NCBI GenBank assembly: GCA_947626525.1
Contig: CANQSM010000024.1
Span: 1-37,675, forward strand
Reading direction: 5' to 3'
DNA length: 37,675 nt
Source: an uncultured Phocaeicola sp.
GTDB taxonomy: Bacteria > Bacteroidota > Bacteroidia > Bacteroidales > Bacteroidaceae
Shown here: positions 21,898 to 25,413 of the stretch, piece by piece
How positions within the stretch are numbered: position 1 is the first letter of the stretch
Layout: each line of letters starts with the position of its first letter
Notes under the pieces: generated by a model
The model's input: the letters and a program-made list of their open reading frames with translations, nothing else
Database searches by the model: none
Told to the model about the DNA's origin: nothing
Position numbers and translations under genes: made by a program

Positions 21898-22495
21898 ATG
21901 GACTAATGTAGGGATGATGTGGATATAGAATATTGCATTGTTGCAAAAAGTATGAGTGCGTAGATTGAAACTATGAAGCATATCGAGTTCTCGACCCAGA
22001 CAGTTCCAAGGCGAAAAAATCATCGAACAGTCTCTGGAGTATTATCGGCATTTCAATTCCTGAGAGAATGTCTCTCGCCTGTTTCAGTAGACCAGCCCCA
22101 CATAATCCCGAATTCGTCGTATTCCTGTTTCGTTATAGGTTCGAGGAAATTATAAAATCCGAAACTTGGAATCCCCACGCCTCTTTATTGTCTTTTGAAA
22201 AGAAACCAGCCATTGATATGAAGCTTATCAATGAAGGGCAGCCTAATGTGGCTCTGATTTTATTTCGAATTCACGTAAAATAAAAATTTCTTGGTATAAA
22301 AATCCTTTGATTTTTATTTATTTTCTCCTCATATGAGAAAAATAAAGTGACCGTCTTTTCATTAAAATTCATGGTATCCTACGCAATCTAAAACTCATAG
22401 GTTGCAAAATCCAGACCGTCTTACTCTGTGATAATTTATTGCTATAAAAACTGTTAAACTATTAACGAAGAACGAACAAATATATCAAACTTTAT
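21898..22495. other. 600-nt accessory intergenic stretch without a convincing gene
   Basis: Short frames here (for example 21973-22155 and 22068-22283) have no family resemblance and run through the palindromic repeat. The stretch holds repeat copy C (22186-22279) and a small palindrome of 7-nt arms TTTTCTC/GAGAAAA at 22321-22341. An A/T-rich promoter zone leads to the next operon. Decayed gene remnants are possible but not identifiable. Confidence 0.6.
22186..22279 (-). repeat. Dispersed palindromic repeat, copy C (inverted, diverged)
   Basis: The reverse complement aligns along its length with 17581-17675, with many substitutions and a few gaps. The central palindrome at 22211-22233 keeps 21 of 23 bases of the core found in copies A and B, with 8-nt arms. 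The arms outside the core no longer pair well, so this looks like an old copy. Confidence 0.75.
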
Positions 22496-22503
22496 TACAT
22501 TTG
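22496..22503 (+). promoter_or_regulatory. -7 box of the GNAT-IbrA-IbrB operon
   Basis: TA-CA-TTTG fits the -7 consensus and lies 24 nt before the ATG at 22528. A proper -33 element is not evident, so expression may be weak or need an activator. Because this box covers the TTG at 22501, that codon is not the start of the gene. Confidence 0.6.
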
Positions 22504-22527
22504 CGACAGAACATTAGGCTTTTCGAT

Positions 22528-22947
22528 ATGGATATTATAAAACTTCCCGGTACGAACAAGAGATTGTATGAACTTGTCTGCTCGTTAGTTATGAATCCGG
22601 CCGTTCTACGACAAAACAACAATTATCCGTTCAAAACGAGTGCCAAATATGTATGGTATGTGGCGACTGAAGAAGGACAAACTATAGGTTTTATGCCGGT
22701 AAAAGCTACAGAAACCAACAATTATTTAATAGACAACTATTATGTAAATGGAGATAATTTTACTCTTTTAAAAAGTCTATTAGAAGAAGTCATCAAAGAC
22801 CATAAGGATGAAGCGAATATTTGGGCAACAGTTCACAAACGGCATGTGGAATTGTTTGTGCAAAATGGATTTCGCATCCACGTTGAATGGAAAAATTACG
22901 ACAAAATGAAATATTGTTCCAAGAAAAGAGTGGTATGTACAGATTAA
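22528..22947 (+). CDS. GNAT-like acetyltransferase of the IbrA/IbrB operon
   Basis: From ATG 22528 the protein is 139 aa: MDIIKLPGTNKRLYELVCSL is the beginning. The strand-helix pattern KYVWYVATEEGQTIGFMPVK, DNYYVNGDNFTLLKSLLEEV and VELFVQNGFRIHVEWKNYDK resembles a small GNAT fold, including the late GF-x-WKNYDKM segment. A classical Q/RxxGxG/A acetyl-CoA loop is not clear, so catalytic activity is uncertain. Its last 13 nt overlap the next gene's chosen start, implying translational coupling. The role is unknown; coexpression with IbrA/IbrB-like proteins suggests a shared function, perhaps acting on the same substrate. Confidence 0.65.
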   Translation: MDIIKLPGTNKRLYELVCSLVMNPAVLRQNNNYPFKTSAKYVWYVATEEGQTIGFMPVKATETNNYLIDNYYVNGDNFTLLKSLLEEVIKDHKDEANIWATVHKRHVELFVQNGFRIHVEWKNYDKMKYCSKKRVVCTD

Positions 22948-24221
22948 ATGTATATGAAGCTACACAGAGAAGATTAAAAATTATTTTCGATTATTTCGAT
23001 TACGTATATGTTTCTTTCTCAGGAGGAAAGGATAGCGGGGTGCTTTTAAACCTATGTATTGACTATATTCGCAGGAATAATCTGCAATGCAAACTGGGAG
23101 TATTCCATATGGATTACGAAGTTCAGTATCACCAGACTGTAGACTATATAGAACGTACTTTCTCCGAAAATCAGGATATTCTGGAAATTTTTCATTGTTG
23201 TGTGCCTTTTAAAGTTACAACATGCACATCTATGTTTCAATTATATTGGAGACCATGGGACAATAAATGCCAAGATATTTGGGTTAGGGATATGCCTTCC
23301 CGCTGTTTTACGGAGAAAGATTTTAAGTTTTTCAACAATGAGATTTGGGATTATGACTTTCAAAATCAATTTGCAGGATGGCTACGTAAAAGAAAAAAAT
23401 GCAAAAGTATTTGTTGTCTAGTAGGAATTAGGACACAAGAAAGCTTTAATCGTTGGAGAACTATACATAGCGACAAAAATTTTAGGTATTTATGGAACTA
23501 TAAATGGACTCATAAAACAGGATGGCGACAATATAATGCATATCCCATATATGACTGGGCTACCACAGATATATGGACGGCGAATGGGCGTTTCGGATGG
23601 TTGTACAATCATCTTTACGATCTTTACTACCAAGCCGGAATACCACTCTCTCGACAACGGGTTGCAAGCCCTTTCATTTCTCAAGCCATTCCCACCATTG
23701 CTATATACAGAGCAATAGACCCCAATACATGGGGACGTATGATAGGACGAGTCAATGGAGTAGGATGTGCAGGCCTATATGGCAATACGGCGGCAATGGG
23801 ATGGAGAGGCATAACCTGTCCGCAAGGATTCTCGTGGAAAAAATACATGTATTTTTTATTGGACACACTTCCTAAAGAAACACGTATGAATTATCTGGAC
23901 AAATTATCAGTAAGTATCAAATTCTGGAGGGAAAAGGGAGGATGTTTGTCAGATAAAACCATAGAAAAGCTGAAAGCCGCCAATATCCCTATTACTGTAG
24001 AAGAAACAACTGCCTATCGTACGAGCAAGAAGCCCGTGCGCATGGAATATTTAGATGATATAGATATTGCGGAATTCAGAGAGATTCCTACATATAAACG
24101 AATGTGTATTTGTATCATGAAAAATGACCATACATGCAAATATATGGGATTTTCTCAAACAAAACGGGAAAAGGAGATGCGAGAACGCACTATGAACAAA
24201 TATAAAAATCAGGTAAAATGA
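22935..24221 (+). CDS. IbrA-like PAPS-reductase/PP-loop protein (DUF3440)
   Basis: From ATG 22935 the protein is 428 aa. The N-terminal adenine-nucleotide alpha-hydrolase domain has the PP-loop SFSGGKDSG (27-35), the ATP-binding motif of PAPS reductases and of the phosphorothioation enzyme DndC. A C-terminal DUF3440 region includes CLVGIRTQESFNRWRTIH, YPIYDWATTDIWTANGRF and GWRGITCPQGFSWKKYMYF. This is the IbrA architecture; in E. coli IbrA with IbrB activates prophage-borne eib genes. The true reaction is unknown: sulfur activation or nucleotide chemistry is inferred from the motif. The gene overlaps its neighbours on both sides (13 and 4 nt). The upstream ATG (22887) lies inside the GNAT gene and is less likely. 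Confidence 0.88.
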   Translation: MYRLNVYEATQRRLKIIFDYFDYVYVSFSGGKDSGVLLNLCIDYIRRNNLQCKLGVFHMDYEVQYHQTVDYIERTFSENQDILEIFHCCVPFKVTTCTSMFQLYWRPWDNKCQDIWVRDMPSRCFTEKDFKFFNNEIWDYDFQNQFAGWLRKRKKCKSICCLVGIRTQESFNRWRTIHSDKNFRYLWNYKWTHKTGWRQYNAYPIYDWATTDIWTANGRFGWLYNHLYDLYYQAGIPLSRQRVASPFISQAIPTIAIYRAIDPNTWGRMIGRVNGVGCAGLYGNTAAMGWRGITCPQGFSWKKYMYFLLDTLPKETRMNYLDKLSVSIKFWREKGGCLSDKTIEKLKAANIPITVEETTAYRTSKKPVRMEYLDDIDIAEFREIPTYKRMCICIMKNDHTCKYMGFSQTKREKEMRERTMNKYKNQVK

Positions 24222-24742
24222 TAAACAATTTTAGAAGTCCGGTATACTCTGTCAAAGCTATACCTTTAGAGAAAGTAGTAGCCAACAGCTATAACCCTAA
24301 TATTGTAGCTCCACCGGAAATGCGGTTATTGGAATTATCCATTTGGGAAGACGGATATACAATGCCTTGCGTCTGCTATTACCTGAAAGACAAAGATCAA
24401 TACGAACTGGTAGATGGTTACCATAGATATATGGTAATGAAAACTTCTCAACGTATATATGAACGGGAACACGGGTTACTGCCGGTAGTGGTAATAGACA
24501 AAGATATATCTAACCGTATGGCATCAACCATTCGTCATAACAGAGCACGAGGAGTACACTCTATCGAACTGATGTCGGGTATCGTATCTGAATTAGTCCG
24601 GTCAGGTATGTCTGATAGCTGGATTATGGAAAATATAGGAATGGATAAAGATGAATTGCTTCGCCTCAAACAAATATCCGGACTTGCTGAACTATTTGCA
24701 GGAAAAGATTTCAGCATGTCTGAAGAATGGCAAGAAGACTAA
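24218..24742 (+). CDS. IbrB-like ParB-fold protein
   Basis: This 174-aa protein has a ParB/sulfiredoxin-like N-terminal domain: the loop VANSYNPN (21-28), ELVDGYHRYMVM (63-74, the ParB GxHR-type box) and STIRHNRARGVHS (103-115). The last ~50 residues form a probable helix-turn-helix (MSDSWIMENIGMDKDELLRL). ParB-fold domains bind or hydrolyse nucleotides (CTP or ATP), so a similar activity is possible. It is the standard IbrB partner of IbrA and overlaps it by 4 nt (ATGA), so the two are made together. No partition locus (ParA) is adjacent, arguing against plasmid segregation. Confidence 0.85.
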   Translation: MINNFRSPVYSVKAIPLEKVVANSYNPNIVAPPEMRLLELSIWEDGYTMPCVCYYLKDKDQYELVDGYHRYMVMKTSQRIYEREHGLLPVVVIDKDISNRMASTIRHNRARGVHSIELMSGIVSELVRSGMSDSWIMENIGMDKDELLRLKQISGLAELFAGKDFSMSEEWQED

Positions 24743-24869: not shown

Positions 24870-24942
24870 GCACTCTTAGCTCAGTTGGTAGAGCAACTGA
24901 CTCTTAATCAGTGGGTCCAGGGTTCGAATCCCTGAGGGTGTA
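24870..24942 (+). tRNA. tRNA-Lys (anticodon CTT)
   Basis: A full 73-nt cloverleaf can be drawn. The acceptor GCACTCT pairs with AGGGTGT (two G-U), and the D-arm contains TAGCTCAGTTGGTAGAGCA. The anticodon stem ACTGA/TCAGT holds loop CTCTTAA with anticodon CTT. The T-arm is CAGGGTTCGAATCCCTG and the discriminator is A. The anticodon reads AAG and its identity fits lysine. The CCA end is not encoded. It stands alone and is followed by a strong inverted repeat at 24982-25045. Confidence 0.95.
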
Positions 24943-24981
24943 CGTGAGGCGATTACTTATGTAATTGGACATTATAAAATA

Positions 24982-25045: not shown

Positions 25046-25413
25046 ATTTTGCCGAAGAACTGAGTCTCCGTGAAAAAGAGGCGGATCCTTACTATGTAAC
25101 CATCTTCTCGTCTTTATTATCTTCACTCCAGACAGTTAATTCACAAGCGATTGTCTCAAAAGTGAAGATGGAGAAATGTGCTCTTTACGGATATAGGAAA
25201 GGAGCGGAAAAACTGTCGGAGTTTTCGGAAAGATTCTTAAGAAAGTTTCGGAAAACTCCGGGAGTTTCGGCGGAGCTTCTTAAGAGTTTTTCCTTACACT
25301 TTCTTTAATCCCGGCATCGCTCATGCGGTCGGGTTTGTTGCAACGCGGATTTCCAATCCCCGCTTATAATTTCCTGCACGACCAGGCCAGAAGTAACCAA
25401 TCCAAGGGGTCTT
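25046..25413. other. Repeat-rich accessory stretch, no convincing gene
   Basis: A frame from 25015 to 25308 runs through two palindromic zones and shows no domain. An imperfect inverted repeat occupies 25206-25293. The stretch 25345-25376 partly resembles the reverse complement of sequence beside repeat copy C (about 22139-22177), both containing TTATAATTTCCT. The segment ends at the stop codon of a decayed lipoprotein gene. Confidence 0.5.
25206..25293. repeat. Nested imperfect inverted repeat
   Basis: Outer arms GGAAAAACTG (25206-25215) and GAGTTTTTCC (25284-25293) differ from perfect pairing at one position. Inside, CGGAGTTTTCGG (25217-25228) faces CGGAAAACTCCG (25249-25260), complementary except at one position. 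CTTAAG occurs at about 25236 and again at about 25279. This looks like a folded mobile or repetitive element rather than a coding region. Confidence 0.65.

Follow-up and report, generated by a model that had tools for sequence, protein, structure and literature searches.

In Escherichia coli, IbrA and IbrB activate eib genes (Sandt 2002, cited in PMC6008420), and their K-12 counterparts, YbdN and YbdM, are encoded by ybdNM, which is repressed by the LysR-type regulator CitR encoded alongside (PMC9068703). The Listeria genes lmo1310/lmo1309 have been listed as a putative toxin–antitoxin pair (PMC7020466). IbrA is further found in 212 phage records and IbrA/IbrB homologues in 595 plasmid records; the initial annotation, which held the pair to be known solely from E. 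coli eib, was therefore too narrow. No family member with a known reaction was found in the literature. Among systems that invite comparison, Dnd phosphorothioation uses a cysteine dyad to transfer sulfur (PMC10853773), and DpdA–DpdB combines a modifying enzyme with a ParB-like NTPase (PMC12839542). IbrAB is thus already known; the trio described here from gut Bacteroidota, in which a GNAT-fold protein joins the pair, is an undescribed variant, and neither the GNAT trio nor an exchange between helicase and GNAT was found described in the open-licence papers searched.

The locus lies in a 37,675-nt stretch of Phocaeicola DNA, referred to below as the window, with the promoter box, the three genes and the neighbouring tRNA gene on the forward strand. 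Three overlapping open reading frames at 22528–24742 encode a GNAT-fold protein of 139 aa (22528–22947), IbrA of 428 aa (22935–24221) and IbrB of 174 aa (24218–24742). The ibrA gene starts at ATG 22935, overlapping the GNAT gene by 13 nt, with an in-frame ATG at 22887 as an alternative start, and ibrB starts at 24218, overlapping ibrA by 4 nt (ATGA). A Bacteroidota-type −7 promoter box, TACATTTG, was recognized in the sequence at 22496–22503. Since TTG 22501, which a mechanical ORF list had used as the start of the GNAT gene, falls within this box, ATG 22528 is the likely start. Of 60 loci, 44 have the −7 motif TANNTTTG in the 120 bp preceding GNAT, where shuffled sequences would give 5, and just 2 of 65 have it ahead of ibrB; a box that is typical before GNAT and rare before ibrB indicates a single operon with GNAT first. 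The confirmed 13-nt and 4-nt overlaps and the box before GNAT bear out the one-operon layout proposed in the initial annotation. Upstream of the cassettes, no conserved operator beyond the −7 box was found, and palindromes were about as common as in shuffled sequences. Gene order is the same as in E. coli IbrA/IbrB and K-12 YbdN/YbdM, likewise adjacent and overlapping, with 32% identity between IbrA and YbdN and 45% between IbrB and YbdM, whereas K-12 ybdNM has neither a GNAT nor a helicase gene beside it.

Association of the GNAT gene with ibrA extends well beyond the window. Among 101 relatives, GNAT occurs in 7 genomes and DUF3440 in 8, and all 7 GNAT genomes are among those 8. A genome scan using IbrA alone as query returned 70 loci, nearly all from Bacteroidota; GNAT lies directly upstream of IbrA in 63 of them, and the remaining seven consist of four with an SNF2-type helicase in the GNAT position (L042, L046, L050 and L053) and three from Akkermansia. 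In 344 genomes of the order, chosen without regard to IbrA and searched separately with the GNAT profile and DUF3440, DUF3440 was present in all 25 genomes whose GNAT match was strong (E < 1e-20), while 5 genomes carried DUF3440 without a clear GNAT (Fisher p 2e-33); G721, one of these 25, carries the GNAT and DUF3440 genes on separate contigs. Conservation of GNAT beside IbrA in other genomes, on which the initial annotation had staked its proposal, therefore holds (63/70 loci; 25/25 GNAT genomes). DUF3440 itself is patchy, occurring in about 9% of the genomes sampled from the order, or roughly one in eleven. Two laboratory strains, Phocaeicola vulgatus ATCC 8482 and E. coli K-12, carry homologues. 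Pairwise distances correlate across GNAT, IbrA and IbrB (r 0.57–0.69). As judged by this conservation, the trio is a single transcription unit and a single functional unit.

The same comparisons bear on whether the trio is a decayed, functionless mobile remnant. The IbrA frame is split in a few relatives (L024, L080, L084 and G738), as a remnant might be, possibly through sequencing error, but the frame and PP-loop are intact in nearly all copies at the 70 loci. Relative to the nearest relative (L019), dN/dS is 0.13 for GNAT, 0.05 for IbrA and 0.02 for IbrB, with dS near saturation for the latter two. Decay, already largely refuted by intact frames and dN/dS, has a next to negligible probability, and these substitution patterns indicate that the trio genes are under purifying selection. 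The earlier view of an operon that has not decayed is upheld, with SGGKDS kept in relatives.

IbrA matches Pfam DUF3440 (E = 5.1e-91) and PAPS_reduct (E = 5e-12), and aligns over nearly its full length with phrog_2302 (E = 1.2e-97). It has the organization of the DUF3440 family, a PAPS-reductase-like domain with the PP-loop SGGKDS followed by DUF3440. In its predicted structure (pLDDT 81.5), residues 1–260 form a PP-loop fold (Z from about 16 to 14) whose kin are FAD synthase, APS/PAPS reductases and ATP sulfurylase, the DUF3440 part lying outside the match list. Aligning 110 diverse IbrAs, spanning Bacteroidota, E. coli and mycobacteriophage, disclosed near-invariant residues, namely SGGKDS, D60, E62, R166, E169–S170, R173 and D207, a signature that points to catalysis rather than to a dead scaffold. 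Fold and motif place IbrA among the N-type ATP-pyrophosphatases of the PP-loop superfamily.

The cysteines of IbrA are less uniformly kept: C391 and C401 are each present in 109 of 110 sequences, C89 is lost in E. coli, and none is strictly invariant. A candidate Fe–S or metal site (C89 plus CxCx7C) seemed invariant in 47 close relatives only and was rejected as a universal feature, at least one such cysteine being missing in each of E. coli YbdN and phages Nebkiss and phiAQ113. The link to DndC drawn in the initial annotation survives as a distant kinship within the PAPS-reductase-like PP-loop superfamily but not as a closer one: the match of IbrA to DndC/BrxP is weak, local and about 60 residues long, a full-length match is missing, and the C-terminal domain differs (DUF3440). 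In the whole genome, DndB was not found and DndD gave no match above the curated cut-off, leaving no complete Dnd pathway; the earlier statement was that no DndB, DndD or DndE gene is adjacent. A DndD-like ATPase at a contig end (G000:C5:123-2045, L223) reaches 113.6 bits, compared with a curated cut-off of 245.85. PAPS/APS reductases (CysH) carry a catalytic cysteine motif of the ECG type at the C-terminus; this motif was not found in the window IbrA, nor was a match to the CysH equivalog. Because no IbrA cysteine is invariant and DndB is absent, IbrA is unlikely to perform the standard reaction of DndC or CysH, and the missing ECG motif also makes CysH-type chemistry unlikely. Sulfur transfer by C391/C401 may nevertheless occur.

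These features also weigh on a metabolic or toxin–antitoxin role for IbrA–IbrB, whether in sulfur metabolism, as a SerK-like serine kinase or as guessed for lmo1309/lmo1310. PAPS-reductase kinship of IbrA is consistent with such a role, as are the ParB-fold kinase SerK (cited in PMC12704722) and the putative toxin–antitoxin listing of the Listeria pair (PMC7020466). Against it stand the absence from IbrA of both the ECG motif and a CysH equivalog match, an insignificant SerK match (E 0.083), a toxin–antitoxin label that amounts to guilt by association, and neighbouring genes among which sulfur genes do not recur. We consider this role very unlikely.

The first gene of the trio is annotated as hypothetical in Parabacteroides and Bacteroides records, and searches of curated family libraries with the window protein sequence gave no match. 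Its AlphaFold2 model, built from an alignment with 66 relatives, has a pLDDT of 92.8 and a pTM of 0.87. Foldseek matched the model to GCN5, ElaA and other GNATs with E down to 1.5e-07, and VIA-align gave 4lua as the best match (Z 14.9, rmsd 2.2, 127 residues), with Z ranging from 12.4 to 14.9 among the 50 matches listed. The window protein is thus predicted to have a canonical GNAT fold, as the earlier assignment of a GNAT-like partner had supposed; such a fold search reveals fold kin only and is uninformative on substrate. In contrast to the GNAT acetyltransferases GCN5, ElaA and RimI, with which it shares the fold, the window protein and all aligned Bacteroidota homologues lack motif A (R/Q-x-x-G-x-G/A), the acetyl-CoA pyrophosphate loop, which among 66 aligned rows was seen in L131 alone. 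Conserved instead are N30, T37, W43, N70 and Y71, together with NNYPFKT-, W43-, FxP- and NNYY-type positions. With the CoA loop missing, the protein is probably not an ordinary acetyltransferase and more likely serves as a binding or adaptor subunit.

IbrB matches the ParB-like family phrog_2159 (E = 3.3e-74). The window protein alone falls under the Pfam detection level, while Pfam ParB_N is matched by 30 of 36 family members, and a profile search matches Noc/ParB structures. Encoded directly after ibrA, IbrB has the ParB N-terminal fold and can be aligned end to end with YbdM/IbrB; its identity to phage IbrB is 45%, as to YbdM, and rises to 65–73% in Streptococcus, Lactobacillus, Listeria and Fusobacterium. 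It is the best-conserved subunit of the trio. Together with the DUF3440/PAPS_reduct and phrog_2302 matches of IbrA, the phrog_2159 match identifies a genuine IbrA/IbrB pair, as originally annotated. Noc/ParB/VirB-type proteins have the ParB N-terminal fold in common with IbrB, which differs in being short (174 aa), in a box II of VDGxHR rather than GERR type, in a box III of RHNRARGxH and in having no ParA partner. By homology of fold, IbrB is probably a ParB-type, nucleotide-binding and DNA-associating subunit, and its C-terminal stretch appears HTH-like. The Mycobacterium phage Nebkiss homologue of IbrB (L141:5290-6186) has an N-terminal extension, and one scanned IbrB member, probably this same protein, matches cupin/ectoine synthase (E 1.3e-32).

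Outside Bacteroidota chromosomes the company of IbrA–IbrB changes. Among the 212 phage records with IbrA, a GNAT match was found in just 4, all unannotated and faecal. Instead, a PF00176 SNF2-like helicase lies close to IbrA–IbrB in 33 of 47 viral loci (IMG/VR), an annotated DNA helicase immediately precedes the PAPS-reductase-like and ParB-like genes of Streptococcus phage Pika and Mycobacterium phage Nebkiss, and the Listeria order between pyrH and tkt is a 125-aa gene, SNF2, DUF3440 and ParB. Relative to this phage and Listeria module (phrog_2302/phrog_2159), in which IbrA identity reaches about 63% in viral contigs, the Bacteroidota trio has GNAT where theirs has a helicase. The third partner of IbrA–IbrB is thus usually an SNF2-type helicase in phages and Listeria and GNAT in Bacteroidota chromosomes. 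L052, L065, L066, L074, L106 and a few others carry both. The helicase, in viral, Streptococcus and Mycobacterium phage and Listeria loci, suggests DNA as the common theme.

Viral loci with GNAT surfaced through the IbrA query; a viral contig scan by the GNAT query alone gave no pattern match, the pattern step being insensitive for so divergent a protein. The order is IbrA–GNAT–IbrB in L128 and L131 and IbrA–IbrB–GNAT in L132. The L131 and L132 proteins score above Pfam GNAT cut-offs; all three are distant matches, L131 with a normal CoA motif, and by their sequences may be independent recruits. Other viral arrangements were also seen. In L107, L108 and L109, where neither GNAT nor a helicase was matched, IbrB is followed by a protein of about 133 aa and then by IbrA, and L094 and L111 encode upstream of IbrA a protein to which no identity was assigned. 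Fusobacterium phage phiFN37 (L138) has the IbrA–ParB pair and a helicase, and in addition a second ParB-like gene directly before a queuine tRNA-ribosyltransferase homologue, which recalls DpdA–DpdB.

We propose, with a probability of roughly 0.4, that the trio works as a PP-loop enzyme that consumes ATP, is recruited to DNA through a ParB-like subunit and carries an exchangeable accessory subunit, its substrate and output being conjectural. IbrB would bring IbrA to DNA, where IbrA would use ATP to modify DNA or a nucleotide, probably by adenylating its substrate; eib activation in E. coli and similar effects on transcription would be consequences of this modification. The third, exchangeable subunit would be an SNF2-type helicase in most phages and Listeria, or in Bacteroidota chromosomes the GNAT-like protein, which, devoid of a CoA loop, would act in binding or as an adaptor. 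In favour of this proposal are the conserved trio, the promoter box ahead of GNAT, the PP-loop fold and near-invariant residues of IbrA, ParB_N among IbrB relatives, the helicase beside the pair in phages and Listeria, the GNAT-like genes at other positions in viral contigs and the absence of motif A from Bacteroidota GNATs. Against it, recorded IbrA/IbrB phenotypes are solely regulatory (eib activation, PMC6008420; ybdNM co-regulation, PMC9068703), no conserved upstream operator was found, the helicase, missing from most Bacteroidota chromosomal loci, occupies only 8 of the 70 loci found via IbrA, and the distant GNATs of L128, L131 and L132 may be independent recruits. DpdA–DpdB offers a functional analogy only, as IbrA is a PP-loop enzyme and DpdA a transglycosylase. 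An undescribed machine that adenylates DNA or a nucleotide by chemistry unlike phosphorothioation, targeted by a ParB-like clamp and served by swappable helicase or CoA-independent GNAT-like subunits, would be a rather doubtful extension of the proposal.

The regulatory phenotypes might instead be taken at face value. The trio would then be a dedicated transcription regulator that modifies no nucleic acid, in which IbrB would be an NTP-switched DNA clamp (as VirB/Noc), partnered by IbrA as an ATP sensor and by GNAT as a subunit that binds a ligand or protein. Activation of eib by E. coli IbrAB (Sandt 2002, via PMC6008420), the match of IbrB to Noc/ParB structures and the established existence of nucleotide-switched ParB-fold regulators (PMC12704722) all fit. 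A full PP-loop catalytic signature across phyla, however, exceeds what sensing needs, phages retain that signature beside a helicase, and no common target gene or operator lies close to the cassettes. We regard a pure regulator as a real possibility, if a somewhat unlikely one.

The unit of promoter and three genes appears to be transferred as a whole. In blastn against the nearest relative (G001:C24), 22444–24742 aligns at 80.4% over 2303 columns, and the alignment ends at the ibrB stop. The aminotransferase–FtsX block upstream of the cassette matches G001:C1, not G001:C24, and also aligns with other relatives that have no cassette there; the cassette occupies a different chromosomal place in G001. 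Flanking genes vary by lineage and are mostly housekeeping (Pfam of 101 neighbours). The window IbrA is closer to that of Rikenella (L020, 79% identity) than to that of Phocaeicola coprocola (L088, 62%), which suggests lateral transfer. No integrase was found in the cassette unit. The trio moves as a stand-alone cassette. Base composition was uninformative as a sign of foreign origin, cassette GC tracking flank GC (r 0.78, mean difference −0.011).

A tRNA-Lys(CTT) gene identified by ARAGORN at 24870–24943 lies outside the system as a neighbour. In G001, too, a tRNA-Lys gene is near the cassette, at a distance of about 1.1 kb and in opposite orientation, and this spot is possibly insertion-prone. 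The tRNA neighbour noted in the initial annotation is thus correct locally and does not hold as a general feature: a tRNA was found within 1.2 kb in only about 9 of 70 loci, with many isotypes, and tRNA-Lys was rejected as a general integration site. The description of the surroundings as repeat-rich accessory DNA is apt, repeats flanking the region. One is a 121-bp interspersed element with internal inverted symmetry (25190–25310), which has several dozen further copies in the genome at 79–97% identity (74 both-strand matches); the other, an element of about 100 bp (about 22186–22284), has about 15 other copies genome-wide. On seven contigs (C12, C16, C18, C20, C36, C39 and C120) the two lie within about 30–300 bp of each other and their relative orientation does not vary, as though a single composite repeat comprised both. 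The window copies flank the cassette, in an orientation unlike that of the seven-contig pairs.

A stand-alone cassette at varied sites, patchy at about 9% of order genomes by DUF3440, could also serve in defence against phages or plasmids, or be a counter-defence module of phages that chromosomes have adopted. Its parts are akin to DndC and BrxP, and ParB-like proteins serve in defence (PMC10853773 and PMC12839542). In PADLOC, however, neither GNAT nor the window IbrB matches any family, and IbrA matches DndC/BrxP only weakly. Defence-island neighbours, as envisaged earlier, did not materialize, with no defence family in more than 3 of the 101 flanking genes. The trio also comes without a nuclease or other effector, and IbrAB is widespread in phages themselves (212 records). 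Together these observations make a defence module unlikely.

IbrA/IbrB homologues are widespread, reaching from E. coli K-12 and Listeria through hundreds of phages and plasmids to the Bacteroidota order surveyed here. A linked third gene, listed in databases as hypothetical, and the phage helicase that replaces it define a concrete complex for purification. If the unit modifies DNA, as proposed here, it would bring new chemistry to phage–host biology; if its role is regulation alone, it would represent an ATP-dependent regulator of a new kind.
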